A stretch of 64,000 nucleotides of DNA from a candidate division WOR-1 bacterium RIFOXYB2_FULL_46_45. Lineage in GTDB: Bacteria > Margulisbacteria > WOR-1 > XYC2-FULL-46-14. The notes under the pieces were generated by a model that was given only the letters and a program-made list of their open reading frames with translations, made no database searches and was not told the origin of the DNA. The first letter of the stretch is position 1. Each line of letters opens with the position of its first letter. Positions 572 to 36,649 of this stretch are shown here, piece after piece. The stretch spans positions 602,744-666,743 of the forward strand of contig MEUE01000001.1 in assembly GCA_001771585.1 (NCBI GenBank). The letters run 5' to 3'. The translations under genes and the position numbers were made by a program.

Positions 572-3500
572 TTATTTCACTCCTTTCAAGCCGAGCGCTC
601 CTTCCATAACTATCTGCTCATTGCCACTGTAAGACCCGATGATCCTGGCTATAATTTCTTGATTGTTGGGATTGGTCAAAAGCCCTTTATACTCGGCTAT
701 TTCTTTGTCCAGTCCGGAAGAATCTTCCGAAAGGTTAAGCGCCCTCCGCAAATATCTGCGACCTTCGACTCCACGGTTAGCCGCTATGTACATTTTGGCC
801 AGCTCCTTTAATAATCCGCTCCGTTGGTAGGGATCGCCGTTCACCAGCAAACGGATAAAACCGTTGCTTTCAATATCGCCGATCAATTCAACCATCTTTT
901 CTTCCAAACTCCCCGCACTGAACCCGATTGCCGCGTCTTCATCCAAAATCCGGTGCATCATGCCAATGGCATTCTTCTTCCCTTCTTCCGAACGGTTAAA
1001 TACCAGCCAGGCAACCGATTGGTAGGCCCCGATAATCCTCTTAAACCAATCGGTCGTATAGGGAGTGTCTCCATAAAATTTCCGATAGGCCTCCGCCAAA
1101 AGCTTTTCTGCCGCGCCAAGGGCTTCGGTGGTGTTGCTTCCCAAAACCTTTTTTACTTGTTCAACTTCCGCGAGCAATTCCAGCTCTTCCATAACTTTTG
1201 CCCTCTCCCCTTTTCCCATCCTTTCTTCATACGAGCGCAAGCTCTGAGAAAAATCCAAAAGCCGCTCCATAGAATCGGAAAAAGCTTCATAATCGTCATC
1301 CTCAAGCGCTTTTTCCGCGCTGCTTAAAAACGCCCTTTCAAATTCGGTCAACCCTGTTTTTAGTTCGGCTATGACCGCTTTAACCTTCTTTATAATGAGC
1401 ACCCTTCCCTTAATCCTTTCTTCGAGATAAGTAGAGGTAATTCTTGCATCAAAATCAAACTGCTTCTCCTCAAAAATGGTCACTTCTTTACCAAGCCTGG
1501 CAAGGTGCTCTTCCATTTTTCTCTTGTTGATCTGCCTGGTGTAGTCCGGACCGTATACCAGCGCCTGAATGGTGCGCCCAATAAAACCAAGCGTCCTTAC
1601 CCGGCTTAAAACCGCTGGAGAAGAAACCCTGGTTGCGCCCGCGCGCACACTCTTTATCATCCGTAAAATGCCGACACAATCTTCTTCCGCCCGTTTTGAT
1701 TCTTCCCTTTCCAGAAAATAGACCACCCGTTCCAAAAAGGCCCTAACGCGAACCATGGGAGACAACTCTCTTACTCGTTCAAAATCGGACGCCACCTGCC
1801 TGGTTGCCGCTTCGGCTTCCGATTCCGTCTCGCTGACAAACTCAATCTTGGCCGCTGCCAAAGCAAGTTTCGCATAACGAACATAATCGGCTATTTTTGC
1901 TTTGTTTTTGGTATCCCAATCGGCCACAGCTCCTTCAACCCCGGAAACTTCTAACTTCCCCTCCAGTATGGTTTTGGCCACTCTTGCAATCCCCTCCCGT
2001 AATCCCTTATCTGACAAAGCAGTTGGCATCTGTTTTCCGTCCAATAATGCGGAAAGACTGTCAATAATATCAATCACTTCTTTTATTCGCGGATCGCCCT
2101 GCATCCTGGCCTTACGCTGAAACACCGACAGGTCTCCGGTTACTTCCGCTCCGATGCCAACGGCCGATTTTTCAGCATTAAAAATCCCCAGTAATGCGCT
2201 TAACGCGATTTCCGGAGTTAATTCCTCCCATAAAACCTCTTTGTATAATTTAACCGCCGTTTTATAGTCGGCCAATCTCTCTTTGTCACCTCTTGCCACT
2301 TTTTTTCTTGACAACAATTCTCCCCTAGCCCTGTACATCTCCGCTTTCTGCAGGCGCAATACTGCCATCAAAACCTTAAATCCTCTCTTGTCCTCTTCTT
2401 TGTGCCCGGTCGGGTCAACCCATTTATCAAAAAGGTCGTCCCGCATCTCTTTAATCTGCCGGCTTACCCTTTCGGTTGCCCGATCCAGATTCTTTATTAT
2501 TCCCTTCTTTTCTTCCCACGGTTCCGAAAGCCGCTTTGCCCCTTCGGCATAAAGAATCGCGGCTCTGGCAAAAATCTCCGGAGTTTTTGAGGCCAGATGT
2601 TCCTCACAGATTAGCATTCCGCGTTTGACCATCTCCTCTTCATAGGTATCGATCAAGCTCTGGGCAACTCCAAGTTCCGAAAACGGGCTTCTTTGTTTTT
2701 CGGAAACAGCGCTATAGCGCCGAAATACTTCAAAGGGCAAAAAGCCCCCTTCTCTTATGGTCCCCTCCAACCCCTGTGCCGCCCTCAACGTTTCATAGGG
2801 ATGGGACTGAATTGTCGGATCGGACAAAACCCGGGAATATATTTCAGCCGCTCCATCCATCATCCAGAGAGCTTTCATCTGGTCAGCGGCATTAAGATTG
2901 GCCCTACCTCCCACAATTGGAATAAGAAAATCTTGCTTTTCTGCCGCAACCACAGCCGGAACCAAATCCAATTCCGCCCGTTCTCCCGGCGTGCGTCCCC
3001 AATAAGAATTAAATCCGGGATAAAACGGCAAAAATTTGGCGTGTGACCATGGATAAGGATGTCTTTGCAGGATATTCTGGATATCTTTACTTTTATCCAT
3101 TTCATAGCGTGCCAACGGCTCCCAAATAAACGCGCGGTCAAGCATCAAGGTTGACCATAAGAAAAGACTGCTTTCATAATAACGTCCGGTTAATCCGGAA
3201 TTCTGTTTAGACATCTTCTCCCGCAATTGATTGCACATTCTTCTGTAAACCAAACCGGCACGATCTTGTCCCGCCGCGTAAGCCAGGGCGGCGTATCCGG
3301 CATAAAGCATATCCTGTCTCGCGAATCTCTCTTCCATCTCTCCGGCCGCGATCTCTTGCCCACCGTAATCATGAATTCTCATTGCATCAACCGCTTCCAC
3401 AATTTTTAAAGACCTGGTCATCTCATCCAAAATTAAACGGGCCAACCGCACGTTCCTTTCCGCAACGGAAGGATCTTTGCAATAAAGGGCGTCCTGGGCA

Positions 3501-4471
3501 ATCATCCAGAGCGTTCTTACCGCATCGTATCCAAATCGAAAACTGCGGCCGGCAGGACTATAAACTTCAAATTCGTTTTCAAGTTTACCCATATTCAGGC
3601 GCGTCTTCACCGCAAGGATAATCCAATCCGGAATATTTTTACCAAATCCCTCAATCACCACCTCGCGGCTGATCTGCTCATCTTCAATAATTTTTTCCCA
3701 TTTATGTCCCGGGTTAGAGTCAAAATCACGGAAAACCTCAAGAATCGCGATGGAAACGTAGCTTAAGTTCTTAAGATGGCCGTGAACTCCTCCCCGATCG
3801 TAGGGGGTGGGAGCCAGACTGGCAAAAGCGCCGTCGTTGTCAACATATTTTTCATAAATCAGGTTAAGAAGACGCTGTGCCATTTCGGTATAATCAAATC
3901 CGTCAATCTCCTGCCAGTTCCCTGCTTTGACCTTCTGCGCCGCCTGGATAAGCTCATTGGCAATCTGTATGTCGGCATCAAGGGCCGAAGTGCGATTGGT
4001 AACAACAAACTTTCCGGTTTTTTTATCTACATAACCCTGCCAGGCGGGAAGCCCTCTCTCCATCATAAGTTTGACCCCTCTTAAAACTTGGTTGAATTTT
4101 TCCTGGCTATCCATCTGCCTGGCGGCACTCAAGCCCCAGGGTGCCCCCTCCGATACCCACAGGAGTTTGTCTTTCTCTTCTTCCTGTTTCACAAAAACCG
4201 CATCGGCTACTCCGGGAATCGGAGCGGTAAAAGTTTCCCACCACCCGGCGAGCAATTCTCCACGCTTTATGGAGGATGAAGTCCTTTCTATCGCGGGAGG
4301 GGAAATTACTTGAAGAACGTGTTGAGTCGCGGTAGCGCCGGCAATTAACCCGGTAAGACCAGCTCCCACAACCAATGCTTCCCTTCTGGTCATTCCCAAC
4401 CTTCCGGGAGAAAACTCCAGTGGCGGCTTCCCTTTTAAATATCTAATAACATTTCTAATTGGCAAAAGCAT
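572..4471 (-). CDS. GH8-family glycosidase with Tat-like signal and long helical C-terminal region
   Basis: Predicted 1299 aa. Residues about 75-420 match glycoside hydrolase family 8 (endo-beta-glucanase, BcsZ class). SEG near residue 108 is the expected general acid, an LDADIQIAN segment near 165-167 matches the TDADxxIA motif, and YDAVR near 316 supplies the other catalytic aspartate. Ahead of it, residues 28-50 (TRREAL then a hydrophobic stretch) resemble a twin-arginine signal or anchor. After about residue 600 the protein is charged and helical with TPR-like repeats, so it is over three times normal GH8 length. I chose the ATG at 4471 because AAGG lies 8 bases upstream; the GTG at 4480 is the alternative. 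It overlaps the end of the upstream glycosyltransferase gene by 17 bases, which implies translational coupling. Likely role: trimming the glycan made by that enzyme. Confidence 0.8.
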   Translation of the reverse strand: MLLPIRNVIRYLKGKPPLEFSPGRLGMTRREALVVGAGLTGLIAGATATQHVLQVISPPAIERTSSSIKRGELLAGWWETFTAPIPGVADAVFVKQEEEKDKLLWVSEGAPWGLSAARQMDSQEKFNQVLRGVKLMMERGLPAWQGYVDKKTGKFVVTNRTSALDADIQIANELIQAAQKVKAGNWQEIDGFDYTEMAQRLLNLIYEKYVDNDGAFASLAPTPYDRGGVHGHLKNLSYVSIAILEVFRDFDSNPGHKWEKIIEDEQISREVVIEGFGKNIPDWIILAVKTRLNMGKLENEFEVYSPAGRSFRFGYDAVRTLWMIAQDALYCKDPSVAERNVRLARLILDEMTRSLKIVEAVDAMRIHDYGGQEIAAGEMEERFARQDMLYAGYAALAYAAGQDRAGLVYRRMCNQLREKMSKQNSGLTGRYYESSLFLWSTLMLDRAFIWEPLARYEMDKSKDIQNILQRHPYPWSHAKFLPFYPGFNSYWGRTPGERAELDLVPAVVAAEKQDFLIPIVGGRANLNAADQMKALWMMDGAAEIYSRVLSDPTIQSHPYETLRAAQGLEGTIREGGFLPFEVFRRYSAVSEKQRSPFSELGVAQSLIDTYEEEMVKRGMLICEEHLASKTPEIFARAAILYAEGAKRLSEPWEEKKGIIKNLDRATERVSRQIKEMRDDLFDKWVDPTGHKEEDKRGFKVLMAVLRLQKAEMYRARGELLSRKKVARGDKERLADYKTAVKLYKEVLWEELTPEIALSALLGIFNAEKSAVGIGAEVTGDLSVFQRKARMQGDPRIKEVIDIIDSLSALLDGKQMPTALSDKGLREGIARVAKTILEGKLEVSGVEGAVADWDTKNKAKIADYVRYAKLALAAAKIEFVSETESEAEAATRQVASDFERVRELSPMVRVRAFLERVVYFLEREESKRAEEDCVGILRMIKSVRAGATRVSSPAVLSRVRTLGFIGRTIQALVYGPDYTRQINKRKMEEHLARLGKEVTIFEEKQFDFDARITSTYLEERIKGRVLIIKKVKAVIAELKTGLTEFERAFLSSAEKALEDDDYEAFSDSMERLLDFSQSLRSYEERMGKGERAKVMEELELLAEVEQVKKVLGSNTTEALGAAEKLLAEAYRKFYGDTPYTTDWFKRIIGAYQSVAWLVFNRSEEGKKNAIGMMHRILDEDAAIGFSAGSLEEKMVELIGDIESNGFIRLLVNGDPYQRSGLLKELAKMYIAANRGVEGRRYLRRALNLSEDSSGLDKEIAEYKGLLTNPNNQEIIARIIGSYSGNEQIVMEGALGLKGVK

Positions 4472-7400
4472 TTCTAACACCTTCTTTTATCTCAAGAGAT
4501 TTACTCCCCTCTTCATCCAAACGGCTCGGATCGTCATCCACTCGGCCGCGATAAATTCCCCTGTTAAATGCCAAAAGTGTTCCTGCTCCCACCCCGGCAT
4601 GCAATAATGTCCAGAAAGCGGCGGCAAACATCCCCGCCTGCCCCTGCTGGCTTAAGACATAATCGTGAGCATAGGCCAAGGCCAGTAAATTTGAACCGGC
4701 CAATGACATTTCAAACCAGAGGGTGCTCCAAGGAACCCTCTCTCTGGCAATACTTTCTTTGGGAGAAGGGACAAAAGGCGGACGCTCTCCCCAAACCGTT
4801 CCTTCGTAAAAAGATTGGAGCATCCTTCCCAACCCGCCAAACTCGATATAAAGACATCCCAGTGTCTCTTTTAAATATCCTTTTTCCAAAAAGCCCCTGC
4901 TTCTCATAACCCCCAGGAAACTGGACATGTTGATCCCGAAAGTAGCGCCAACCATCGCCAGGAAAACCGCGGCCTGTTCCGGGGTCTTGCCCATTATCAC
5001 GGAAGAGAGTCCGCCAAACATAAAAAAGAGCGGCATGGCAATCAGCGCCGGACGGAAAAACCCGGTCAACCAGAAAAGCGACAAGGAAGCAAAATGGATT
5101 TTTCTTCTCCAACCCATTTCGCTGAAAAGGATATCCCATAAGATTGGCTGGTTGCCGCGCGCCCAGCGGGCATAAAAAGTAGTATTGGCTCCCGCCAAAC
5201 TGTCCGAGTGTGCCCCCAGCGGACCGGTCCCTTCAAGGAACAGGCCGTTCCATAAATGATTGACCCCGTTGCCATCCATACTGAGTATCCCCCGTAAAAA
5301 TCTTATGCAGGAAGCTATATCTTCCGATTCGGTGGTGGTATCCTGCACCGCCCAGATTTCATGGACATCCCCGGCGATAATTTTTTTCTCATCTACCGGC
5401 ATTTCTAATCTCCGGGCCAAAAACTCCGGCATTCTTCCGGTGCGGGATAGAAAATGGCCGGCATCGGCAAACTGCAAGGCAGAAAACGCGTAAGCCAAAT
5501 CAACGGCGCTTAATCCAAGTTTAAGCAATTTAGCCGGGTAACTTTCAGATTTCACCAGTTTGGTAAGTTTAAACTTACCTTCATATCTTTCTCCTCCGTT
5601 CGAAAGCCTGCTGACGTAGGGAATTTGGGTAATCCACCACGAGCTTTCATCATAAGCCCGGGTGGAATAGGCGGTGCAGGAACCCCAGGAAGCAACTGCC
5701 CCATTGTTGGGATCAGATCCTTCAATATTCGGGAAGTTCCAATAAGCGTTACCGCCGCTCTGGAAAGAATCGGCAATCGGTTTTCCTTTCTCCCTTCCAA
5801 ACTGCCGCATACCGGTCATATAAATACTTTTTCGCTCCTGCAAATACGGGATCTGCCACAAGGCCGCGTCTTCCGGGGAGCGGTAATCAGCGTCATCCAG
5901 CTGTATTCCCGTGTATTTAAGGACCGATATCTGCGGGGTCTTTTCTTTCAAATAATCGGTAATCCCGTTTGCCTCCGCCACACCTTCCATTTCGGAAGCG
6001 ACTTTGCCGATCGCTTCAAACCCAAGCTTCCTGATCCTGTCGTCCAGCCGCACATCCCGGTCCGCTTCGGAAAGCCCTTCCCTTATCTTTTCAAAAGCCG
6101 TTTCAAGGCGGGGAGCAAGCTCACGGATTGCCGCCGCAAAGCGCGGGCGACACATTTCATCCCCTATCTTTTCTTTCCTAACCTGCATTTCGGGAAGCCG
6201 GTTGGTGACAATCAGCTCTTCCGCCGCCTGTTCCGCGCTCTGGCCATTCGGGCTTATGATATAGTGGTAATATTGTTCAAGCTTGCGCTTGGCCGCCTCA
6301 TGACCCTTTACTCCCAACATTTCACCCCTCCACACCACCAGCCGCCCTCCCGGACCGGGAACAAGAGTAATCGCTCCCAAATCCCTTTTCACGGTCATCT
6401 CTTCAAGTGTTCCTCTGATCGGAAGCGCCGCCTGCCTCAAAGCGGCCGCCTCTTCCTGTGAGTAAGTATCGGGAGATAAAGCGATAAAGGATTCCACAAT
6501 ATTGTAACCGGAACCCAACCGGGTGCCGATATCCGCCAAATTGTCCGAAGCGTGTGAAAAAAACCGGGAGAGCCAGCTTCTGCTTCGAAGCTCTTTGATA
6601 ATTGCAACCAGCTCTTTCTCTTCTATCTTTGACATATTGGGCCAGGTCCTCAACGCGGCAACAATTTGCGCGACATTCCTTCCCCTGGCGGTCTCCCCCA
6701 GAACCAGAGCAACAAACCGTTCTACGTTGTTTTCTCTCCCGCCGACTTTCAGTATAATTTCATTATTGATCCGCCTTCTAAGCTCTTCCGGAACCTCTTC
6801 TGAATATTCGTCGATAAATTTTTGATAATGCCTGGCAAGCGGCTCTTCGATCCTCCGGTCAAAACGGGCCCGCGGAGCGAGCCGCAGGTAATAATGTTCG
6901 GCGGTGCCGGCTATTTCAAAAACTCCGGCCCTAACCTCCCCTCTGATCGCTTCAGCGTGTTTCCGCACTATCGCCGGAAGAGATGAGATATCGTAATCAA
7001 GGTTGACTCCAAATTCATTTATGACTCTGCCGAGACAAATCCGCCTTTCAATCATTTCAGCCGCTCTAACTAATTTGGAAAGCAGTTTCGGCGGAATCGT
7101 TCCGGTTATACCCCATTCCGCCAGCAAAATAGCGGCGGCAGATTCAAAGGTCTTGCCGGACAATATCTCTTCAACCAGCCTGGTCGCGATATAATCGGCA
7201 TCGCACAGTCCGCTGTCGACCGTCCGGGGAATTAATCCCCTGGCGCCGGATATCTCCGCATCGATGAAGCGGATCACTTCTTGCGGAACGTGCCTGCGCC
7301 CAAAAATCCTCTCTTCAACCATCCGCATGACGATCTTCCGTTCCGCTTCGCCGATATAAACCGGAATGCTCCATCCCTTGATCAAGCCGTCGGCGACTCC

Positions 7401-9959
7401 GGCTTTTGCTCCTCCACGATAGGGATTGCGAACCAATTGCACCCGCTCGTCCACCTCTTCTTTGATCGCTTTTAAGTCGATATCAACGCCGGGGATCCCT
7501 TCAAATTCCACTTTTGGAATTGCCCGGCGCAAGGCCAATGCTTCGGCGGATTTAACCAACTCTTTTATTTTCCCCACCTGCCGGTTAAACATTTCTATGT
7601 AAGCGGTAACTATTTGTTCCGCTAATGGTTTTGGAAGACCCAATTCTCTTTCAAGTTTTTCAATCAAAGCATCCTTAGTATCCTTGTTTTTTGCCGGATC
7701 GGCAGTGCTTTCAAGTATCTTATCCAGCTCCTCCCTTTGCTTGGCCGAAAAGCGTTTACTTATTCCTAAGTCCTGTAGGACCAAAGAAATCGCGATGGAA
7801 AGTTTTTGTTTCTTGTCTCCGGAATTTCCAAGATTAAATGCTTTTAGTACCTCTTCCAATAGCTTCTCTTCCAAAACCGCCGGATCTTTCCCTAAAACAT
7901 CTTCAACCTTGGCGACCACCGCTCCCAAAAATTCAACCGCCGCAAAATGCTTGTACTCATAAGATTCCTCGATGACTTCAAAAAGTTTGTCCGCCATTTC
8001 CTCAACCTGTCCCGCATCCAGCCCTTCCGCCGTCCCAACTCTCTGTACAACAGCGGCTATTTCGCTTTTTCTTTCCTGCATCGCTTTTTGGACAGCTTGC
8101 TCAAAAGGAAGACCTTCTCTGGCAATAAACCCCTCCACCTTATCCCCAAATTTATATAAGCCGTTTATTCCGAGCGCGATGGCATTGGAGATCTTCTTCG
8201 ATTTGCCAAATTTACAGTGGAGGACACTCTGCACGACATGATTGCATTTTTCCCTCAAAGACCCGGCAATCAGCGAGATCCTTTTGTTATTCTCGGCAAA
8301 TTGCGACATAATCTCATGGGCCAGATAAAAAAGTTTCCTCTGTTCCACGCTGCCGCGATTGGCCGAAAAATCGTACCGCCCCACAACCTTGTCCGCGGCA
8401 CGGTTGATCTGTTCGTAGTTTGAATCGATTTGAGCAACTATCCTTTTGGCCTGTTCTTCGCTTAAATCAAATTCTTCCTGGAGGTGGCTATAAAAAAGAC
8501 TTAGGCTCTCCTCTGACAAAGCCTGTCCCTGAAAAATAGCATAGGCAAGCTTGGCAATATTGGCCTGCCGGACCAGTGAATCCAGTTTCTGCCGCATCAA
8601 ATGAGCCAGGGTCTCCACTTTGAGCGGGTCAACTCCCAGTTCAATAAGCTGTTCCCTTATCGCCTCCTGGGTAATGGTTGTTCTGAGCAGATCGTTTACT
8701 CCTCCGAAATTAAAGCTTTCAAAACAAGTCGCCATGGTCCTTCCAAGTTTCCTGATACTGCGCTGGCTGATCGAATACGGCTGGGCAAGCTCCGCCACTC
8801 TCGCCACCGAGTGAAAACGGCAATCGGGATCGTCAATCTCTGTCCCCTCAAAAGCGAGGACGCTTGAAATCTCGTCGGCCTTGATCCTTTCCACTCCCAG
8901 GGCGCTAATCATCTTTTCTATAACCAGTTTGCGGGCGACCATCTCTTTCCCTTTGTTCGCGGAGGCGTTGGCCGACATCTTGTTAAAGAGAAAAGAAGAC
9001 ATATCGGCCACAAAGGTATGGCATTTCTTGCCGTAACGCAAAGCGGTGCGGACATGGCTGATTACATTCGGCCGGATTGCCGAAGCGGGCTCGTCCACCA
9101 TTGTTAACAGGTAGGCATAAAAGGGCCGCTTTTCCGGATCGGGAACCAAACTTTCCCTGATCTCCGGATACCATCCCTCCCCAATCGCTTTTCTGGCATT
9201 TTTCACAACCGACCAAAAATACTTGACCGCCAAACCGTTAAAGAATAACTCGGCTACAAATAAAAGTCCGGCCGCGGTAATAAGCAGCGGTCCGGAAACC
9301 ATCCCCGCGGCAATAACCGCCCCAAGTGTATACAGACGATAGGAAGAATAAAGAACCGAGACAGTTATGGCAAGGGCGGAGAGTATCCTAAGTCCCCACG
9401 CCTTGGTAATATCTTTGGCAGATAGCTTGGAAGAGAGATCGGCGGCTCTAAGCGTCGCTTCCTGAACTGAAGCGGCGCTGTTGGTGGTCAAGACCGTTCC
9501 CAGTGACTTGAATAATCCTTCAAACTTTTTTTCCAAACGGCGGCTTCTCCACGATGATTGCGATTTGATTATCTCTTTTAACCCTGTTATTTGGGCAGTG
9601 ATTTCCGAAGCGTCTATCTCTTCATTGTTTTGCATTCTCCGGCAAAGCCCCGCCAGTCCAGCATAAAAACTTGTTTCAGCTAAGCTTGCTTCTCCCAATT
9701 TTTCATTCTGCCGCGAGATTTCTGAAATCGCTTCCATCCCTTGCGACATCTCAATAAAAATTTGGTCTTTGCGGGAAAGAAAACCATCCATGGCCATCCG
9801 CGCATCTTTGACAACCGCGGCGGTCCCGTTGCCATACCAATCGGTTCTAACTCCGTTGGAGATATTTCTTATATTTCCATTGTGCCCAAGCGTGAGATGA
9901 TGGATCATCCTCACCGCTTGAGTGGTGCGCCAGGCGAATCCGACATAATTACCGGCCAT
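4455..9959 (-). CDS. Giant family-2 glycosyltransferase (cellulose-synthase-like) with about 1000-residue insertion
   Basis: Predicted 1834 aa. Two or three membrane helices at about 190-246 are followed by the start of a GT2 fold: TMVDEP at 286-291 and an aspartate at 319 where cellulose synthases have DDG. The rest of the GT2 signature appears only about 1035 residues later: DDAD at 1355-1358, GSC near 1427, ESED at 1544-1547 (the TED base) and YARWARG near 1596-1602 (the QxxRW motif), then several C-terminal membrane helices. In BcsA-type enzymes the first two aspartate motifs are under 100 residues apart. The insertion is helical and charged, and I recognise no domain in it. The ATG at 9959 follows GGAG by 5 bases; a GTG at 9965 is possible. 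It is first in its operon behind a sigma-28-like promoter. Catalytic motifs look intact, so I expect an active membrane synthase; donor and product are unknown. Confidence 0.8.
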   Translation of the reverse strand: MAGNYVGFAWRTTQAVRMIHHLTLGHNGNIRNISNGVRTDWYGNGTAAVVKDARMAMDGFLSRKDQIFIEMSQGMEAISEISRQNEKLGEASLAETSFYAGLAGLCRRMQNNEEIDASEITAQITGLKEIIKSQSSWRSRRLEKKFEGLFKSLGTVLTTNSAASVQEATLRAADLSSKLSAKDITKAWGLRILSALAITVSVLYSSYRLYTLGAVIAAGMVSGPLLITAAGLLFVAELFFNGLAVKYFWSVVKNARKAIGEGWYPEIRESLVPDPEKRPFYAYLLTMVDEPASAIRPNVISHVRTALRYGKKCHTFVADMSSFLFNKMSANASANKGKEMVARKLVIEKMISALGVERIKADEISSVLAFEGTEIDDPDCRFHSVARVAELAQPYSISQRSIRKLGRTMATCFESFNFGGVNDLLRTTITQEAIREQLIELGVDPLKVETLAHLMRQKLDSLVRQANIAKLAYAIFQGQALSEESLSLFYSHLQEEFDLSEEQAKRIVAQIDSNYEQINRAADKVVGRYDFSANRGSVEQRKLFYLAHEIMSQFAENNKRISLIAGSLREKCNHVVQSVLHCKFGKSKKISNAIALGINGLYKFGDKVEGFIAREGLPFEQAVQKAMQERKSEIAAVVQRVGTAEGLDAGQVEEMADKLFEVIEESYEYKHFAAVEFLGAVVAKVEDVLGKDPAVLEEKLLEEVLKAFNLGNSGDKKQKLSIAISLVLQDLGISKRFSAKQREELDKILESTADPAKNKDTKDALIEKLERELGLPKPLAEQIVTAYIEMFNRQVGKIKELVKSAEALALRRAIPKVEFEGIPGVDIDLKAIKEEVDERVQLVRNPYRGGAKAGVADGLIKGWSIPVYIGEAERKIVMRMVEERIFGRRHVPQEVIRFIDAEISGARGLIPRTVDSGLCDADYIATRLVEEILSGKTFESAAAILLAEWGITGTIPPKLLSKLVRAAEMIERRICLGRVINEFGVNLDYDISSLPAIVRKHAEAIRGEVRAGVFEIAGTAEHYYLRLAPRARFDRRIEEPLARHYQKFIDEYSEEVPEELRRRINNEIILKVGGRENNVERFVALVLGETARGRNVAQIVAALRTWPNMSKIEEKELVAIIKELRSRSWLSRFFSHASDNLADIGTRLGSGYNIVESFIALSPDTYSQEEAAALRQAALPIRGTLEEMTVKRDLGAITLVPGPGGRLVVWRGEMLGVKGHEAAKRKLEQYYHYIISPNGQSAEQAAEELIVTNRLPEMQVRKEKIGDEMCRPRFAAAIRELAPRLETAFEKIREGLSEADRDVRLDDRIRKLGFEAIGKVASEMEGVAEANGITDYLKEKTPQISVLKYTGIQLDDADYRSPEDAALWQIPYLQERKSIYMTGMRQFGREKGKPIADSFQSGGNAYWNFPNIEGSDPNNGAVASWGSCTAYSTRAYDESSWWITQIPYVSRLSNGGERYEGKFKLTKLVKSESYPAKLLKLGLSAVDLAYAFSALQFADAGHFLSRTGRMPEFLARRLEMPVDEKKIIAGDVHEIWAVQDTTTESEDIASCIRFLRGILSMDGNGVNHLWNGLFLEGTGPLGAHSDSLAGANTTFYARWARGNQPILWDILFSEMGWRRKIHFASLSLFWLTGFFRPALIAMPLFFMFGGLSSVIMGKTPEQAAVFLAMVGATFGINMSSFLGVMRSRGFLEKGYLKETLGCLYIEFGGLGRMLQSFYEGTVWGERPPFVPSPKESIARERVPWSTLWFEMSLAGSNLLALAYAHDYVLSQQGQAGMFAAAFWTLLHAGVGAGTLLAFNRGIYRGRVDDDPSRLDEEGSKSLEIKEGVRNAFAN

Positions 9960-9991
9960 GTTCACTCCGCCTCCTTTTATCTCCTATATAT

Positions 9992-10101: not shown

Positions 10102-10124
10102 ATATATAGAAAGAGGTGTTTAAA

Positions 10125-11606
10125 ATGTCCTATTTCGGATTTAAGAGCATAAGGGTGGGAGGGATAAAGCTTCCTACAATCGTAAGCGGATCACAGCCGT
10201 TCCGCAGCGGCTTTTTCTCTCGTAAATCACTCCCTTTCAAAAGCGCCCACGCAATTGTCGGTTTGGGGTGGGGAGACGAAAGAAAAGGGGCCAACACCGA
10301 TTTTGTCGTTTCACGCATCAGAGAAATTGCCCCGGACCGCTGGATAATTGTCGCGCGCTTCAGCGGAGGCCCCAACGCCGGACACAAAGTGGTCCATCCT
10401 TCCGGAAAATTCCGTGTCTTTAACCAGGTCCCATCCGGAATCCTGGTTGAAGGCAATACGATCGGGATCCTTTCAAAATTAGTCGACCTTGATCTCTTAT
10501 TCGAGGAAATGAGAATATTGGAAGATCGTTTTGGGAAAGCCCTGTTTAAACCGGATAAAATCAGGATTTTTGAAGATTCCACCATTATTCTCCCCTATCA
10601 TCCGGCGCTGGGCAGAATGGAAGAAGCGGCAAGGGGAGACGGTGAACACGGCAGTATCGGCAGAGGGGTTGGAGAAGCGGAAAACGATAAAGAAGAGAAA
10701 ATAAAACTCAAAGAACTAATTGACGCGTTGGGGGACTCGGAAAAAAGAAGCGCATTGGAAAGGAAGCTGACCGATATTTGCAGAGAAAAACACAAACGGG
10801 CAATGCAAATAAAAACCCGTTCGAGCAGGGCAAGCGAGCATTATAATCCGAACGACTTTAATCCAAAAATTATTTTGGAAAAATATTTATCTTACGCACG
10901 ATTTCTCCAGGAGAAAAACTTAATTATCGCTCCTGATTTTATAGAGAAAAAATTCGCAGAAGGAAACATCTCCATTGTTTTTGAGGGGTCGCAAGGAGCG
11001 TTGCTCCATCCAAAATACGGACCGGAACCGTATGTAACCAAAACCAACATATTGGCGGAAGCCATACAAGATTATGCCGGAACCACTATCACTTTGGATC
11101 AAGTTGAGATAATCGGTTCAATCCGGGCCTACCACACCCGCCACGCGGTCGGTCCGTTCCCGACCGAAATACCTCCAGCTATCTGTCCGGATGTACTGCT
11201 CGATTCCACCCGCGGCAACCCCTGGCGGGGATCTTTCAGGGCCGGGTGGCTGGACATGGTTCTTTTACGATACGGGATCGGGCTAAATGCCAGGATCGAT
11301 TCTCTGGCGGTAAGCTGCCTTGACCGGCTTGACACTTTGGGGACTATCCGTTTTTGCCCCGCTTATACATCGGGTCCGGATTTTCCGCCAGGATTGAAAA
11401 AAGGAGCGGTCACTGAATTTTTAATGCGGACCGTGCCAATTTATGAAGAATATCCCGGATGGCTTAGGCCAACCGTAGGGATTACAAGATATAACGACCT
11501 TCCGCAAGGAGCAGCCAGACATTTAAAAATAATTGGAGAACACACCAACCATGAAGTCTCCGCTTTTTCAATCGGGGCGGGAAGGAATCAATTAATTCTT
11601 CTTTAG
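10125..11606 (+). CDS. Divergent adenylosuccinate synthetase-like protein (PurA paralogue)
   Basis: Predicted 493 aa; canonical PurA, which joins IMP and aspartate using GTP, is about 430. Family landmarks are in order: GWGDERKG near residue 49 (GxQWGDEGKG, catalytic Asp kept but the loop altered), FSGGPNAGH (the catalytic His region), PSGIL, FEGSQGALL, AYHTRHAVGPFPTE, a GWLDMVLLRYG segment and a C-terminal GWLRPTVGI. Where PurA has IGTTGRGIGP there is GSIGRGVGEAENDKEEK, then a charged insertion of about 60 residues. An N-terminal extension of about 40 residues is also present. The ATG at 10125 follows GAGG by 8 bases. Its last 15 bases overlap the convergent gene downstream. The changes and its regulon membership make a specialised paralogue more likely than the housekeeping enzyme; its substrate is unknown. 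Confidence 0.75.
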   Translation: MSYFGFKSIRVGGIKLPTIVSGSQPFRSGFFSRKSLPFKSAHAIVGLGWGDERKGANTDFVVSRIREIAPDRWIIVARFSGGPNAGHKVVHPSGKFRVFNQVPSGILVEGNTIGILSKLVDLDLLFEEMRILEDRFGKALFKPDKIRIFEDSTIILPYHPALGRMEEAARGDGEHGSIGRGVGEAENDKEEKIKLKELIDALGDSEKRSALERKLTDICREKHKRAMQIKTRSSRASEHYNPNDFNPKIILEKYLSYARFLQEKNLIIAPDFIEKKFAEGNISIVFEGSQGALLHPKYGPEPYVTKTNILAEAIQDYAGTTITLDQVEIIGSIRAYHTRHAVGPFPTEIPPAICPDVLLDSTRGNPWRGSFRAGWLDMVLLRYGIGLNARIDSLAVSCLDRLDTLGTIRFCPAYTSGPDFPPGLKKGAVTEFLMRTVPIYEEYPGWLRPTVGITRYNDLPQGAARHLKIIGEHTNHEVSAFSIGAGRNQLILL

Positions 11607-14480
11607 TTTTTTCTCTGCGATTTCGCTTGCCTTGAGTGCGGCAACGTCAATCTCTTTGAGCATAATAACCACGGCAGGATTATCTGTGTCCCGATCTTCA
11701 ATCGTAACGTCCAACGGAAGACCGTCTTTCAATTTGCCTTTTAATGCTTCCAATGCTTTTTCATTGGCAAAGCCAAAGATCAAAACCCCATTTTTATCAA
11801 CCAGTTTAACGCTAAGCTTCTTAACTGGTGTTCTTCTGCCGCGATCAAGCTTTTGAAGTTCGGCGACCAAAAACCCAAGATACGTAAAAAGAAGCGGATT
11901 CGCTGTTATCTGGCCGCGCCGCACATTCTCCTCGGTATTGCTGCTTTCATCCTTCGCCAAATCGCACAGCGGAAACGCGTACAAAAACTCGATTCGGTGG
12001 AAATGGCTCATAATTTCCGAACTGATGTTGCTTGCCGCAAGATGCTTGTCCCAATAATCTTTAAGACCAGCCAGCCCCTCCGGACGGTAATCCATAAAAT
12101 ATTCCTTCCCCTCTTTGCCATGATCAATCTGATCAAGGACCGAAACCGCCGCTCCAAGCCGATAGGGGGTTGTTCTTCCCGAAATTGTCCGTATTTCTGC
12201 AATCGCCGCTCCAGGATTGTTTTTATGTTTTTCCATAATATTATTTATTATTTCTCTTAATTCAAAATAGGTCTCAACCCTCAAATTGGAAAGGTTGCCG
12301 TGTGAGCCGATATCGGCAATGGTGATAAACAAAATCCGGTCAAGCAGGGCTTTTGCCCTGAAGATATCAATCTTCCCATTTACAAGGAGGAATTTTTTCA
12401 CATCTTCATCCTCCAGCATTTCGGCAAATACTTCAAGAGAAGAATGCCCCACATAGAAACCGCCAAAAGCATGATGGTGTTTTATCGCCAGTTCCAGGCA
12501 CCTGCGGCTTAATTCATTCTCCGCCTTTTTTAACTCTTCAACTTTTTTTAGCTCTTCTTTTTTCTTGTTGCCATCAAGGATCTTCTTTATTTTTCCCTCC
12601 GCCTCTTTTACTTTTTTGGCATCAAGAGGCAAGAATGGAAACCCCTGAAAAAGCCGGCAATCCACTATCAACTCGTATCCATTTTTATCGTGGTAGGCCA
12701 AATCGTTAACATCTCCCGGTTTACCCAAATCGTGGGCTGCCACCAGGAGAATCCGCTCTTTTTCCGGAATGGCCGCGGCAAGCTCCCTGATCCGCGCGAG
12801 ATTTTTCTTCTCTCTTTCGCGGTTACCCAAAAGTGAAAGGACTCCCAATCCGGGACTCCTCACCGCGAAAGTTTCGGGAGTATGGCCAGCCTGGATCGCC
12901 ACCGCGATTGTATCCAAAACATGCTTAGGCGTAAAATCCAAAAAAGCATCCGCTTCCAATTGCGTGAGAGGATTGCGGCCGGCTTCTTGAAGTCTTGAAG
13001 AATCTCTCATAAGAATAGTTAACAGGTTCAAAATAGCCCTCTCCCCTTTTTGCCCGTATAAAGCCCCGCGGATAGTTCCCAGCGTCCTTGCGTCAATTGC
13101 CGGATCCTGGGCCGCCGTTACCGCCATACTTAACAATTTGCGCGCCCTTAAAGCACGGGGAGAATCGTAAGAATAAGTCATTGGCTTCAAACCGGTGCTG
13201 GCCGCTATAAAATCAAGAATAGCATCAAGATCAAGTTCATCAAGTTCTCCCGAATTTTCAAATTCAACATCAAACTGCCCTTTTAATTTTTCCAATGCTT
13301 CCCTGACTGCCAGGGTTGTCTTTTCCCTCTCCTCCGCCGGACGGTCGCTCTCCTCTTCTCTCTCCCTAAGCCGCTCTTTTAACTTCTCTTCGCTTACCCT
13401 AAGATACAAAGTATGGACATCGATTTCTTTTTCTTTAAGAGCGGCGGCGATGGCCGGTCCGCAGGCAAGCATTTGAACTCCACCCCTGTAACGGGCCAAA
13501 CGCAGCGAGGTTTTTAATACCCCGTACCTGGCGCCATAGGCCTCTTCAACCGCCGCGAATAATCCCTGGTCCAGAAAAGCGTCAAATTCTTCCGGGCTTG
13601 CATATTCTTCTCCGATTCCGCCGGCTCCGATCCTGTCGGTAAAGACCGGAATAACACCCGCTTTTTTACTTTCGTCAAGCCTTTCTAAAATAGTGCTTTT
13701 CCCCGAACCGGAAGCTCCGGTGATAGTAACCAGTTTGAAATCGGTCCCGTCGGGAGAGCTGTTCCAATCCCTCAACAAAAGTTCGATATCATCGGACCTA
13801 AAGTGGCGCGGATTATATTCCCACCCAAAATAAGAAGCTATTCTTTGCGCTTCTTTAGCATAATCCGTTACTCCTAAAACAGGAAACCAGTTCATCGCCA
13901 TTTTATATGCTAAATCGATTTCCCGATCCGCGTCTTTGGGGGTGGCAGTACAATGTATCGCGTTAAACCTCGGATCAATTTCGTAGGGAGGAGAAAAGCT
14001 CCCCTCTTCTTCAAGTTTAAGCTGGTATCTTACTGACGCTTTAACCTGATCAGCCGTAATCACTTTGTCTTCATGGGTTAAGCCTTCATGAACAGCTTTC
14101 TCCGGCCAGGTCGGACCGACTACCGACGGATCCCTTAAAAAATCATAGAGGGTCTTTTTCCCCGCCGGCACTTCCGCTTCAACAACAAACGCCAAAATAG
14201 GGGCTTGCAAAACTCCGGGATTAGAGCTGGCGGAGATAAAACGAAGCGCCAATTCCCTTCTTAATCCTTCATCCAGCGTTCTCCACGCTTCGGAATAAAA
14301 CCGGTCTACAAATTCCGGGGTCGGCATAAATAAAATCGGAGCATTAACACTAGCATTAATGTTGTGCGCTTCATGTAACCTCTGCACCAATTTATTTGCC
14401 GCCTTCACGCTTAAACCGGGAACCATCGCATCCGGTTTCACCATTATCAGTGCCCGTTGGACTGCAGAAGCGCTTGCCAT
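11592..14480 (-). CDS. Trifunctional fusion: nucleoside diphosphate kinase, guanylate-kinase-like and HD domains
   Basis: Predicted 962 aa. Residues 7-200 resemble nucleoside diphosphate kinase: ALIMVKPDA at the start, GPTWPEKA, and NAIHCTAT near 173-180 with the phospho-accepting His. Residues 248-425 resemble guanylate kinase: Walker A GASGSGKST at 255-263, a TDRIGAGGIGEEY segment in the GMP-loop position, and RYGVLKTSL. Residues about 515-730 carry an HD phosphohydrolase signature: His 520, AHDLGK at 582-587, HHH at 668-670 and Asp 723. A charged coiled stretch lies near 620-660. The ATG at 14480 follows GGGGAGG by 9 bases and starts 2 bases after the upstream stop. The first two activities would turn GMP into GDP and GTP; the HD part could hydrolyse a nucleotide. 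It is third in the 19.4-11.6 kb operon. The domain calls are by motif; activity is inferred. Confidence 0.75.
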   Translation of the reverse strand: MASASAVQRALIMVKPDAMVPGLSVKAANKLVQRLHEAHNINASVNAPILFMPTPEFVDRFYSEAWRTLDEGLRRELALRFISASSNPGVLQAPILAFVVEAEVPAGKKTLYDFLRDPSVVGPTWPEKAVHEGLTHEDKVITADQVKASVRYQLKLEEEGSFSPPYEIDPRFNAIHCTATPKDADREIDLAYKMAMNWFPVLGVTDYAKEAQRIASYFGWEYNPRHFRSDDIELLLRDWNSSPDGTDFKLVTITGASGSGKSTILERLDESKKAGVIPVFTDRIGAGGIGEEYASPEEFDAFLDQGLFAAVEEAYGARYGVLKTSLRLARYRGGVQMLACGPAIAAALKEKEIDVHTLYLRVSEEKLKERLREREEESDRPAEEREKTTLAVREALEKLKGQFDVEFENSGELDELDLDAILDFIAASTGLKPMTYSYDSPRALRARKLLSMAVTAAQDPAIDARTLGTIRGALYGQKGERAILNLLTILMRDSSRLQEAGRNPLTQLEADAFLDFTPKHVLDTIAVAIQAGHTPETFAVRSPGLGVLSLLGNREREKKNLARIRELAAAIPEKERILLVAAHDLGKPGDVNDLAYHDKNGYELIVDCRLFQGFPFLPLDAKKVKEAEGKIKKILDGNKKKEELKKVEELKKAENELSRRCLELAIKHHHAFGGFYVGHSSLEVFAEMLEDEDVKKFLLVNGKIDIFRAKALLDRILFITIADIGSHGNLSNLRVETYFELREIINNIMEKHKNNPGAAIAEIRTISGRTTPYRLGAAVSVLDQIDHGKEGKEYFMDYRPEGLAGLKDYWDKHLAASNISSEIMSHFHRIEFLYAFPLCDLAKDESSNTEENVRRGQITANPLLFTYLGFLVAELQKLDRGRRTPVKKLSVKLVDKNGVLIFGFANEKALEALKGKLKDGLPLDVTIEDRDTDNPAVVIMLKEIDVAALKASEIAEKKLKKN

Positions 14481-14482
14481 GG

Positions 14483-17400
14483 CTATTTACCTCCCCTTAT
14501 GGCGCGAGGAGTGCGCCGGACCCTTTTTTGAACCAAGTTGCACAACACTTTAAACGGCATTCCTGTCCCGAAAACAATTTCATGGTCGGCCACTTTGCCG
14601 TCCTCTTTCTTTCCGCCCCAAATCCTGGTGTATCCGGTCTCAAGCACCCCGTCATAAAGTTCAACCGTTGCCATGGCGATGTTGGGCGGAACGACCAGCA
14701 CTTTTTCTTCGTCCGTATGAATCACATCGTAAAGCATCCGCATGGCGGCAACCGGAATCACACTCGGCTTGGGATAACCTTTGCTCAAATCAAAGGTCAT
14801 TTCCGGAAATTCAATTTTACCGGTAATCCTGGCGCCGTTTATAACGGTATAGGGAGTAATTTTTACCGGCTGCGCTATCTCCGCGTCCAGCAGGATTGTG
14901 TACGGTTTAATCTCCGTGCCGGCGGCCAGCTTGGTCCCCCGTCCGATATAAACTTTGGAGATATCTTCTATAACAACCTCGCCTATTTTGATTCCTTTCT
15001 TTCCATACAATTCATAATTCTCTTCCCCTGTAAACTCAATCTCCCCCAAACACGCCCCCTCTTCAATATTCTTCCTCATTATGGTTCCAATATCCGCTCC
15101 ATCCGGAGCCGGCTCGTTCAATCCTTCTATGTCCCGATACATCAGGCGCATAAAGTAGTCCTGGTGGAAAATTTCCATATACTTCCTAAAAATCTCCTCA
15201 ACCGTCCCGGTATCCGAAAAATGGTCCAAAACCGCGACCCCCACTCCTTTCGATTTATCTTCCACCATTCTGGCAATCCGCCAAAGTTCGATCCAATCTT
15301 GCATATGCACCAGTTCCGGCGTCCATCCCTCTTTTTCTTCTTTTCTTGCCAGCCAGGCCTGCAGACAAATCAGGTTTTTCAGTGGAGTCCATCTTGGATC
15401 GTTTCTTGGAACACTTCGCAATGCCCTGATGTTTCTCTCCGTCAAATTGAATCCAATCTCTATCCGCTTGGCAAAACCATGGCTTTTTACTTTTTTCTGG
15501 ATATCTTCAAGATTATCAATGTCTTGAACAATCGCATCAATGGATTTATGCTCGGCATCAACTTTTCCGATCATCATCGGTTCCATCAGCAGCTGCGCCC
15601 AGTCCACATAAGGATCTTTCTTGAAAAGCAAATTAAGCGGCAAAGCCGGGTTTTCCTTCCCGGTTTTAGGATCATGGCTCGGTCTACTAAACGCCCGTTC
15701 CAATTGATCCGCCAATTCTTCCGTAATCGACATAACAAAAGTATTCAAATAAGTATAGAAAAGGGCATTGGCCAACTGCCTTGCTTCTTCCCACTGGTGA
15801 TCACTTACTCCTCCATGCGGTACTTTTGCCCATTCTTCTTTGGTCGCCTGGGCCGCCCGCGCCAGAAATTCTTCCCAATTTCCGGCAATTGCCGTAAGAC
15901 CAGAAGAAACACATTGTAGGCAAACCTCTTTAAACAAATCCGCCGCTTTCATTTCGCCCAGTTTGGTAATTTTGCGCAAGTTATCTGTCCAATAATCTTT
16001 TCCTCCCAATTTACCGCTTAAAACCTGCCTCCTGATCCCCTCTCTTAAAACTGCCAGAGGGGGCTTTTCGATAAATTGGATTAATTTCCCTTCTCCATCA
16101 AAAACCGCCTGTCCCAACCCCTTAAGATAGCCTAATTGTCCGTCTGGAACCCCTTCCACCTGTGCTTTAACCGTCATAATATGCAATCCGTAATCGGTAT
16201 CTCTTAAAAACTTTTCCCCTACCCTTATCCCTTGATAGTCATCCTTAAAAAGAGCATAGCTTTTAAGAAGCTGGTCGCAACCAAGCAAAACCACTCTTCC
16301 TTTTCCATGATTTGGGAGCTGAAAAGAGATCTCTGCCGCTCCCATCAGCGACATAATTGAGAAAGGAACATATCCTAACCTTATTCCTCCTTTACTGACA
16401 TCCTCCGCCACCCCCAGCATCAGAGATCTGGTCCCTGCCCCTCCTTCCGTCTCAAAAAGAAGGACCGCGTCGCGGCCAAATTGTCCTTTTTTGATCGCCC
16501 TCGCAATCAAGACCAAAAAGGCCGAAAGGTTCCCGATCATGACCTCTTCGTCTTCCCTTCGATCGGTCTTTGCGGCCGAAACCGCCCCGACAACTTCCAT
16601 ATTCCCTCTTATGCGATCAAGCATCTGTTCGTAAAACCTGGCCGATTCGATAAGCTGGACAGTTGCATTTTTCCTGACCCGCTCGGAGGCATCTCCAAAA
16701 TATTCCATTACCAATGATTTAATAAAATTAACTTTGTGGTTCGCCAGAACATAACCGGTATTTCTAACCGGAGTATCGTCTTTGGGTAAAATCTGCGGTT
16801 CTTCAACTTTAGGAGCGGGACACGTTAATGTTGGGGCATCGGGGTCAACCGCGTTGACTCTTTTGGTAAACTCAAAATGCCTGATTGTATTCCTAACTTC
16901 CTCCCCCAGCCCCAAAGTTGTGCCTCTTGTATTAAAAGCCCAAACTTTCCGTTCTAATTTTAGTTTTTTGTCCGAGGTGCTTAAGGTCGGATAAATTGCT
17001 CGAGCCACCTCCAATCCCAGTGCCGCCGCCTTAAAATCCCCTCCAATCAAAACCGCTTCGATGTAACTTAAAACTTCTTCCTCCCTGCCGGCAAAAAAGC
17101 TGGCCAAAACCGCTTCCGCCGCTCGTTTTGAAATTGAAGCGGCCTTCTCGTCGGTAAAAATTTCAATCAACATATTGAGATTGGGTGCAGAGATCGCTTT
17201 GGTTGTGGCTCCGGTCGCGACTACCCCGTTTTCCGGATGCAGCATCGGATCAACCACCAGTTTCGAAAAATTACCGGCGGCCGCTTTGGGATCTGCCGTT
17301 TGTCTTTTCTTGTCGTCAACCACCAGGCTCTTTTTGGCCATCTGGATAGCGTCCTGCACCGCTTTTGGAATACTGACTTTATCTTTGGAATCGCCTGCCT

Positions 17401-18235
17401 CCAAATAGGCCTGTTGGGCGACCAGATGGATTAACCCCTGCTGGACTTCCCTTCTTCCACCTTCCATAAACATCAGGGCAATTTCCGGAACTTCGGCATT
17501 CATCTGGTTTTGAATCTCTTTTAGTTCTTCGGCTATGCAATCGATATCGGTCTCAACGGTCCGGCTCCCCTCGATTGCCTTAAGGGCTTCACCCGCCAGG
17601 CGTTTATATGTCCCAATTCTCTGCGCTTTTCGTAAAACTCTTCTTGTTTCAACAATATCTTTGGGAGGAGAAAACTCGGCGGAATCCTTTATCAAGCGTA
17701 AAATCCTCTCCACTTCAAGGGGAGGAGTTTTTTTGTCGATAATTTTAGCCAGAAGATTTTTTTCTTCTTCCAGCCGGTGTAATAACAAGGGGCCTCCCCC
17801 TTTAGTTCCACCGCCCGCGGCAGGAACACCGGTTGGTTGCGCGGTCACCGCCTCCGCATCTTCCCCTTTTAACATTATATGCAACCGGTCAAGCAAGCTT
17901 GTTTTTCCAACCGTGGGGAAACCGCTTTCCCCCGCCAAAGCAAAAGCAAATTGTTCGGTAAATGAGAACCCAAAACCTCTAAATAATTTCTCTCCCGCCA
18001 ATCTCCTCTCTTTCAACTCCAGCGTCAATCCGCTCCCCAAAAGCCCGTATTTTCGAGCCGCCATTTCAATATCCAGCCGGCCGGTGAAGGCGGTAACAAC
18101 CGCCGAATCGGAGGCGATCTGCCGCCCCAACTGTTCGGACCCAAAATGCCGGCCCAATACTTTCGCCAATTCCGGATTGTATCCGGTGCTGGTTTTTAAA
18201 CCGATCCAACTTATTTTTTGTGTTAAACTTATCAT
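14483..18235 (-). CDS. Large sugar-nucleotidyltransferase-like protein with left-handed beta-helix
   Basis: Predicted 1250 aa. The centre resembles a sugar-1-phosphate nucleotidyltransferase: EGGAGTRS near 597-604 in place of the GxGTR loop, VVLLGCDQ near 648-655 where the metal-binding aspartate is expected, and FIEKPP near 721-726, a hallmark of the family. Near 1090-1160 a hexapeptide-type stretch (VYIGRGTKLAAGTEIKPYT) suggests a left-handed beta-helix, as in GlmU and GlgC relatives. The first 580 residues are mostly helical; a GFPTVGKT sequence near 105-112 fits a Walker A motif but may be chance. The start overlaps the upstream stop as ATGA, and GGAGG lies upstream. Together with the kinase fusion next door it could activate a sugar for the glycosyltransferases. 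The exact substrate is not readable, and the family match is distant. Confidence 0.65.
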   Translation of the reverse strand: MISLTQKISWIGLKTSTGYNPELAKVLGRHFGSEQLGRQIASDSAVVTAFTGRLDIEMAARKYGLLGSGLTLELKERRLAGEKLFRGFGFSFTEQFAFALAGESGFPTVGKTSLLDRLHIMLKGEDAEAVTAQPTGVPAAGGGTKGGGPLLLHRLEEEKNLLAKIIDKKTPPLEVERILRLIKDSAEFSPPKDIVETRRVLRKAQRIGTYKRLAGEALKAIEGSRTVETDIDCIAEELKEIQNQMNAEVPEIALMFMEGGRREVQQGLIHLVAQQAYLEAGDSKDKVSIPKAVQDAIQMAKKSLVVDDKKRQTADPKAAAGNFSKLVVDPMLHPENGVVATGATTKAISAPNLNMLIEIFTDEKAASISKRAAEAVLASFFAGREEEVLSYIEAVLIGGDFKAAALGLEVARAIYPTLSTSDKKLKLERKVWAFNTRGTTLGLGEEVRNTIRHFEFTKRVNAVDPDAPTLTCPAPKVEEPQILPKDDTPVRNTGYVLANHKVNFIKSLVMEYFGDASERVRKNATVQLIESARFYEQMLDRIRGNMEVVGAVSAAKTDRREDEEVMIGNLSAFLVLIARAIKKGQFGRDAVLLFETEGGAGTRSLMLGVAEDVSKGGIRLGYVPFSIMSLMGAAEISFQLPNHGKGRVVLLGCDQLLKSYALFKDDYQGIRVGEKFLRDTDYGLHIMTVKAQVEGVPDGQLGYLKGLGQAVFDGEGKLIQFIEKPPLAVLREGIRRQVLSGKLGGKDYWTDNLRKITKLGEMKAADLFKEVCLQCVSSGLTAIAGNWEEFLARAAQATKEEWAKVPHGGVSDHQWEEARQLANALFYTYLNTFVMSITEELADQLERAFSRPSHDPKTGKENPALPLNLLFKKDPYVDWAQLLMEPMMIGKVDAEHKSIDAIVQDIDNLEDIQKKVKSHGFAKRIEIGFNLTERNIRALRSVPRNDPRWTPLKNLICLQAWLARKEEKEGWTPELVHMQDWIELWRIARMVEDKSKGVGVAVLDHFSDTGTVEEIFRKYMEIFHQDYFMRLMYRDIEGLNEPAPDGADIGTIMRKNIEEGACLGEIEFTGEENYELYGKKGIKIGEVVIEDISKVYIGRGTKLAAGTEIKPYTILLDAEIAQPVKITPYTVINGARITGKIEFPEMTFDLSKGYPKPSVIPVAAMRMLYDVIHTDEEKVLVVPPNIAMATVELYDGVLETGYTRIWGGKKEDGKVADHEIVFGTGMPFKVLCNLVQKRVRRTPRAIRGGK

Positions 18236-35639: not shown

Positions 35640-36638
35640 ATGTCAGGAGAATATTTGGAAAGAAGTTATGCATGTATCAGAAACGAACAAGAATATATTA
35701 AAGGATTAAAAAGCTGGAAGGAATCATTAAAAAAATCTTGTGTAAAAGCGGAAGCAGGACCAGAAGATAAAAACTGCCAAACACTCAAACAATTAACAGA
35801 TGATGCGATTAAATTTTTGTCTTCCGATAATAGGAAAAAGGCACTGTCGAAATGGCTTGAAATTCAAAAGCAATGCCAGAACAAAAAAACGCAAGCAGAT
35901 CCTTTCTTGTTTGCAGCCCAAATGTCCCAACTTGCTATAAAAACGATTAGAACATGCAACGGTTACCCTCTGGACCAAGAAGCTCTTAAAAAAGCTCACA
36001 AAGATTTTTATCTAACGAAATCTGAAAATAATCCACTAAAACCGGAAGATCCTCGAAAATCACTCGAAAAAATTGTTCCAAAAACAGCTCCCCACAAAGA
36101 AAAAGAAATATCATTAGGATCCGGAAATCTTTATGTTAACTCAAAAACCGGCGTTATGGCCATAGCCGAAGGAAATAATCTTGAAGTTGCAAGCAAAGAA
36201 CACTTAAAAGAATGGTGGATGACTATGCCTCTGAGGGAAAGGGAATCTGTCGAAAATACCCTGATTGATCAAGAAAAACAATCAGGTATTACGATAGAAT
36301 TTTTACATAATAACACCGAGTCGCTGAAACGTTATCTGCAAAACAAAAAAATAGGCTTATGCCCCAACAACGTCTTTGGAATAAAAGACGAAGATGTTTT
36401 AACATGGCTATCCAACAGGGCAAGCGGATATCCGGATTTGGCCGAAAAATTAATTTACCTATTTGAAAACAAAATGATACCGTCTCCACCAGATGCTGAG
36501 AATATAAGCTTAAGCAGAATTAACGGAGCATATCAAAGAGCTCTTGAGAGAGGGTATGAAACCCCAACCGTTAAGCATTCTTTGTTCTTATTAAAAATGA
36601 TTTATGAGCAGCTTTATAATCATTACTATGAAAAATGA
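35640..36638 (+). CDS. Hypothetical protein, partner of the following glycosyltransferase
   Basis: Predicted 332 aa, no signal peptide or membrane helix. It is hydrophilic, lysine-rich and mostly helical, with several cysteines in the first 110 residues (positions about 11, 34, 46, 80 and 103). No family recognised. The ATG follows GGAGG by seven bases. The stop lies 11 bases before the start of the GT2 gene and overlaps its ribosome site, so they are coupled. Base composition is clearly AT-richer than in the 1-19 kb genes. A regulatory or scaffolding role for the synthase is possible but only by position. Confidence 0.75.
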   Translation: MSGEYLERSYACIRNEQEYIKGLKSWKESLKKSCVKAEAGPEDKNCQTLKQLTDDAIKFLSSDNRKKALSKWLEIQKQCQNKKTQADPFLFAAQMSQLAIKTIRTCNGYPLDQEALKKAHKDFYLTKSENNPLKPEDPRKSLEKIVPKTAPHKEKEISLGSGNLYVNSKTGVMAIAEGNNLEVASKEHLKEWWMTMPLRERESVENTLIDQEKQSGITIEFLHNNTESLKRYLQNKKIGLCPNNVFGIKDEDVLTWLSNRASGYPDLAEKLIYLFENKMIPSPPDAENISLSRINGAYQRALERGYETPTVKHSLFLLKMIYEQLYNHYYEK

Positions 36639-36649
36639 GGAGGTTTTCG

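Follow-up and report, generated by a model that had tools for sequence, protein, structure and literature searches.

Can a processive glycosyltransferase keep a single catalytic domain when about 1,000 residues separate the first aspartate motif from the second? The question is raised by a giant open reading frame (ORF) from a candidate division WOR-1 bacterium (assembly of 1.70 Mb in 4 contigs, G000 in our genome set), which lies in the window, i.e., the whole 64,000-nucleotide stretch of DNA analysed here. We estimate at roughly two chances in three that the gene encodes a membrane-embedded BcsA-type GT2 beta-glucan synthase, whose GT-A domain would be built from distant sequence pieces around a large helical assembly body. 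The support for this explanation comes from the order and spacing of the motifs, from profile homology, conservation and synteny, and from the existence of split genes.

Motif order and spacing in the synthase ORF

The gene was originally placed at 4455-9959. The position was correct, but the plus strand of this interval contains many stops; the coding strand is minus, and the ORF extends to 9965. The features of the GT part are as follows.

4455..9965, minus: giant BcsA-like GT2 synthase ORF of 1,836 aa, with a GTG start and without an internal stop
9216..9401, minus: TM hairpin ahead of the GT domain, residues 189-250 (by hydropathy; aligned to the BcsA 206-250 region)
8994..9146, minus: beta1, DEP (NE in BcsA), helix, beta2 and D1, residues 274-324, with D321 aligned to D312 of E. 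coli BcsA
5634..5987, minus: KAG-like segment (EANGITDYL) and DxD block, residues 1327-1444, aligned to BcsA 336-449
5886..5894, minus: DxD motif, D1358-A-D1360 (DDADY), by profile alignment and spacing measurement
5346..5618, minus: second expansion, from DxD to SED, residues 1450-1540, by spacing; the G032 gene is split in the same gap
5319..5327, minus: S1547-E-D1549, equivalent of TED at the catalytic base position, by profile alignment
5163..5168, minus: R1600-W1601 of QxxRW, with Q replaced by F
4758..4775, minus: F1731-VPSPK, aligned at the position of the FxVTxK gating-loop motif; the other subclade (see below) has FNVTD there

Along the protein the motifs follow in the order D321 (context VADMSS), DxD, SED, RW and FxxSPK, and the chain ends about 40 residues past the last TM segment. 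In the published assignment of motif roles, the aspartates act on the nucleotide sugar, ED is the base, RW is placed at the acceptor and FxVTxK belongs to the gating loop (PMC6821405). All the GT2 motifs had been described as present and in order; the order held, but the glutamine of QxxRW is absent (FYARW). The gap between the first two aspartate motifs, given earlier as about 1,035 residues, was measured at 1,037 (D321 to D1358), versus 48 in E. coli BcsA. This distance was 48-75 residues in 18 of 19 references (10 BcsA-type and eight phylum GT2 proteins) and 200 in the nineteenth, from G070; BcsA alone gave 48-67, in agreement with the earlier statement that cellulose synthases have fewer than 100. 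The stretch from DxD to SED was also extended, to 191 residues versus approximately 97 in BcsA. This second expansion did not figure in the original description, nor did the spread of the enzyme over a family, its GH8 neighbour and the split genes. An insert of intermediate size (D1-DxD of 200), at the same site and in the same order, was seen in a GT2 protein of G070 (L070:6382-8766, minus). The window also contains, at 36635-38782, 39554-41305 and 46412-48772, a GT2 of the conventional kind whose motif spacing is ordinary, as well as a GH48-like match and a GH94 (phosphorylase-type) gene.

Two collinear blocks match BcsA

The protein was compared by profile-profile alignment (hhalign) with 10 BcsA-type and 9 phylum GT2 proteins, using shuffled controls. 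Two collinear blocks were recovered in BcsA order, namely residues 199-324 on BcsA 206-315, covering the TM hairpin, beta1 and the DDG strand, and residues 1327-1798 on BcsA 336-687, running from KAG to the gating loop. The C-terminal block (1327-1798) scored about 100, far above its shuffled controls, and E-values of 4e-11 to 1e-11 were obtained for residues 1249-1798 (1327-1798 when cut out). For N-terminal residues 200-385, the E-value was 0.0018, or 0.0003 when cut out. The block 180-345 scored 32.7 against BcsA 206-315, and the best of 100+100 column shuffles reached 25.0.

The weak point of the alignment is the beta1-D1 segment. Without the TM hairpin it kept the right register, but its score of 16.9 did not exceed the highest shuffled-query value of 19.3, and in a five-member profile it scored 15.5. 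On its own, it was not found by profile match in the second subclade of relatives described below, and its homology between the subclades was borderline (20.8 versus a null top of 20.8). D1 is moreover replaced by alanine in two of nine aligned members, G071 and G067. The weak statistics of beta1-D1 and the missing D1 would be expected if the C-terminal part were a BcsA-like GT that had lost or replaced beta1-beta2, the N-terminal TM segments and 'first Asp' an unrelated membrane domain, and the insert a long linker or N-terminal extension. We regard this as unlikely, given that the TM hairpin, beta1 and D1 together beat all 200 shuffles in the correct register and order, that the NEP/DEP-to-D1 spacing departs from that of BcsA by no more than a one-residue gap, and that the C-terminal block resumes only about 20 BcsA residues past the end of the N-terminal one (336 versus 315). 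A second beta1-beta2 was not found in the C-terminal block or in region 1250-1350 compared alone, and no separate complete GT2 domain is present elsewhere in the protein. Residues 321-1240 had no match to BcsA or GT2 profiles. An assignment of residues 1250-1275 to beta3/KAGN was rejected, since this region alone fails against BcsA and KAGN aligns at approximately 1330. That the N-terminal motif belongs with the distant C-terminal motifs is supported by the collinearity of the profiles, but not by beta1-D1 alone or by D1 in G071 and G067; from the alignments, we infer that the two pieces share one GT-A fold.

TIGR03030 (NCBIfam CelA) matched at the RW region of the window protein and, independently, of its G071 relative. 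The scores of 16-18 bits were below the curated cut-off of 699 bits, and the window protein is therefore not filed as BcsA itself. A Pfam search of the synthase returned no GT2 match and no insert domain, and PDB sequence searches gave nothing credible, whether run with the whole chain, with either GT part or with the insert. PilZ had no match in Pfam or NCBIfam for the window protein, which suggests that regulation differs from that of BcsA; no BcsB counterpart was identified. AlphaFold2 runs on residues 1190-1836 and 265-1464 gave pLDDT values of 33 and 40 and unusable models, because the two-row alignments were too shallow.

Relatives across Margulisbacteria

The family was present at 10 loci in 74 genomes of Margulisbacteria, the phylum covered by the late-profile searches. 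Direct search found G046 (one ORF of 2,293 aa) and G071. The insert alone matched no known family in the profile search called for by the original prediction, but its profile identified G073 and G069, and the profile of these two identified G068, G066, G044, G067 and G032, the last being outside the class of the window genome. Nine members (the window protein and all of the above except G032) were aligned, and the divided G032 locus is the tenth. Scans of further genome and viral contigs gave no match beyond the known Saganbacteria contig. A profile match in G047 was rejected as a synthase. That genome has two adjoining giant ORFs (L087:1097-13045) of 1,955 and 2,024 aa, which show no profile relationship to the synthase; a GH8-like stretch lies in the first.

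A tree of the C-terminal region gave two supported subclades, the window protein with G071 and G046 versus the other six. The D1-DxD spacing was 1,037-1,540 residues in the nine aligned members and 1,182-1,540 in the six profile-detected relatives of the second subclade. The DxD-to-ED stretch was 191-298 residues across the relatives, with hydrophobic segments in several of them. The insert shares 25-30% identity with that of the window protein in G046 and G071, and the inserts of the two subclades match at E ~1e-7. The earlier argument against decay, from the open frame and the intact motifs, is reinforced by these two genomes of the class, by profile relatives in six more and by G032. An ordinary GT2 joined with its neighbour by an assembly error, or by recent insertion of a foreign element, would explain the odd architecture and nothing else; it is refuted by the conservation of the insert at the same site, without stops, in independent genomes, and we assign it a negligible probability.

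Catalytic residues and the GH8 partner

DxD, (S/V)ED and RW were retained in all nine aligned members. Most members of the second subclade have NND, (N)ADTDN, PSEDLAT, QKLRW and FNVTD, the last motif (FNVTD/FLVTKN) aligning with FVPSPK of the window protein, and the TED-to-gating region of this subclade matches BcsA with an E-value of 3e-6. The glutamine of QxxRW was lost in the window subclade; QKLRW or QKIRW is found in five second-subclade members, and a complete set of D1, DxD, ED and QxxRW in five members of that subclade.

The synthase is followed by a gene for a putative glycan-processing partner:

572..4480, minus: downstream gene with a GH8 (BcsZ-like) domain, a Tat-like N-terminus and a long C-terminal extension, overlapping the synthase stop by 26 nt

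Such a GH8/BcsZ-like gene follows the synthase in nine of the 10 loci (eight and, by profile, G032), and the G066 contig stretch has only a partial GH8-like ORF. As in BcsZ, the acid (SEG/SES) and base (D before xIR) residues are kept, in eight loci. The partners differ from BcsZ in a Tat-like twin-arginine start, present on several of them, and in the C-terminal extensions (window 572-4480 and relatives), which comprise several hundred residues and are TPR-like in part. In two genomes, G069 and G044, a UDPGP-like gene lies upstream of the synthase.

The loss of D1 in G071 and G067 and of the glutamine in the window subclade, together with the very weak family scores and the lack of a Pfam GT2 match, could also be read as signs of a catalytically dead scaffold, i.e., a former synthase in which the giant helical body took over and the GT part became only a membrane anchor. 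This reading is quite improbable in view of DxD, (S/V)ED and RW in every aligned member, the canonical QKLRW/QKIRW in the other subclade and the catalytic residues kept in the GH8 partner.

The insert between D1 and DxD

In BcsA coordinates the insert falls between 315 and 336, beginning past the DDG strand and ending ahead of KAG. It was divided as follows.

7536..8933, minus: insert module A, residues 345-810, predicted helical, no known family
7476..7562, minus: predicted coil linker, residues 802-830; the G071 and G066 gene splits map to 826 and 802
5988..7475, minus: insert module B, residues 831-1326, predicted helical, with an internal repeat
7083..7292, minus: internal repeat copy 1, residues 892-961 (self-comparison score of 34.8 with copy 2)
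6612..6797, minus: internal repeat copy 2, residues 1057-1118 (same score with copy 1)

The original prediction of a helical body agrees with the AlphaFold2 model of the insert, which is of low confidence (pLDDT 40, two-row alignment) and helical almost throughout, apart from a coil placed at about 813-830. By hydropathy, no part of the window protein's insert is clearly a TM segment. Insert-profile matches in ORFs of 528-592 aa (E 0.03-0.08) were judged to be chance, and the one from the same genome resembles a solute-binding protein. Owing to its site, helical nature and conservation and to the split genes, the insert is most likely an assembly body that would hold synthases, or two synthase halves, together, by analogy with plant enzymes. 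The position over the donor site and the regulatory or chain-handling role proposed earlier could still apply.

Split synthase genes

In three genomes (G071, G066 and G032), the synthase is encoded by two ORFs, the stop codon of the first overlapping the start codon of the second, and the split sites are confined to the two expanded gaps, two inside the insert and one between DxD and TED. In G071 (L010:5071-5090), the TAA stop and the next start lie within TAATG, with GAGGAGG upstream; in G066 (L083:4805-4828), ATGGTTAA is preceded by GGGGGTGAG; and in G032 (L086:4420-4500, minus), ATGA is preceded by GGGGGG. Purine-rich stretches are thus found upstream of all three overlapping starts. The G071 and G066 cuts are at or near the predicted coil. 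The first G032 ORF carries a D1-like NSDSSN, the insert and the DxD motif YDLDG, the second RIVEDFATS and QRARW, and the GH8-like ORF comes next. At these loci, a start with such a signal accompanies a random stop in approximately 3% of cases, which makes a pair of sequencing frameshifts an improbable cause of the G071 and G066 splits. The nested position of G071 in the tree suggests that the splits arose as separate fissions. We tentatively propose, with somewhat less than even confidence, that the active site of a processive GT is completed in trans from separately encoded polypeptides (D1 and DxD-ED-RW, or D1-DxD and ED-RW), with the insert and the DxD-ED expansion as assembly bodies joining the pieces and the gene cut there in at least three lineages. 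These naturally split synthases make the question of whether the insert holds the synthase together directly testable.

Proposed architecture and comparison with known systems

In the proposed architecture, the TM hairpin would lead into beta1-beta2 bearing the first aspartate. About 1,000 helical residues would then leave the GT-A domain at the D1-KAG loop and re-enter it before DxD, as two modules with a linker near residue 810 and a repeat in module B. The smaller second expansion would exit between DxD and the catalytic-base motif, after which RW, the TM helices and the gating-loop motif would follow. A UDP-sugar, most likely UDP-glucose, would be polymerised and exported, as the motifs suggest for the catalytic steps, and the GH8/BcsZ-like partner would handle the polymer. 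As for the insert, its role is most likely that of an assembly body, as with the plant conserved region found at this site. A single GT-A fold, a cytosolic placement, a glucan product and this assembly role are what we infer for the family.

The family is similar to BcsA in the order of TM hairpin, beta1-D1, KAG-like segment, DxD, ED, RW, TM and gating-loop-like motif and in the neighbouring GH8/BcsZ gene. It differs in the D1-DxD (1,037-1,540 versus 48-67) and DxD-ED (191-298 versus about 97) distances, in that neither PilZ nor BcsB was found, and in the sub-threshold TIGR03030 scores. In plants, the P-CR sits between the first two aspartates (PMC8306620) and is a trimerisation domain, and the CSR is needed for isoform contacts (PMC12077881). 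The Margulisbacteria proteins resemble plant CesA in having insertions at two apparently shared sites, one separating the first two aspartates and one separating DxD from TED, of which the large one is predicted helical; they differ in being bacterial and in that no RING domain was seen, and the likeness drawn here is one of site. The P-CR is about 125 residues long, and the insert is about eight times that length. The site of the second expansion is presumably the plant CSR position. Another kind of large membrane-bound glucan synthase is about the same size as the window protein; unlike it, the present family has GT2 motifs (DxD, ED, RW and FxVT-like), a distinction made by motifs.

If this architecture is true, a cellulose-synthase-like enzyme can accommodate in its GT-A catalytic core an insertion several-fold larger than the domain, and the core can even be divided between two polypeptides, at positions apparently equivalent to those of the plant P-CR and CSR assembly domains. 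Cyanobacteria, close neighbours of the Margulisbacteria (PMC6349859), are said to be the source of a P-CR-bearing CesA in plants (PMC8306620), and the family therefore bears on the origin of cellulose-synthase assembly domains.

Other genes near the synthase

In the window subclade (G000, G046 and G071), a divergent PurA paralogue lies upstream of the synthase in the opposite orientation. G000 has three PurA homologues (window 10116-11606; C3:37402-38547; C3:489067-490323), one canonical and two divergent, and the other divergent copy adjoins pyruvate-kinase-like and ClpB-like (1,841 aa) genes. A 962-aa protein (window 11592-14480, minus) has weakly NDK-like and guanylate-kinase/PhnN-like P-loop parts and what appears to be an HD part; in G046, the corresponding position is occupied by an HD-type relative (L009:77-1366). 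A 1,250-aa protein (window 14483-18235, minus), without a Pfam or NCBIfam match, resembles by eye a sugar-nucleotide pyrophosphorylase that has become larger and carries repeats in its C-terminal part. An IS110-family transposase is located at window 19595-20902.
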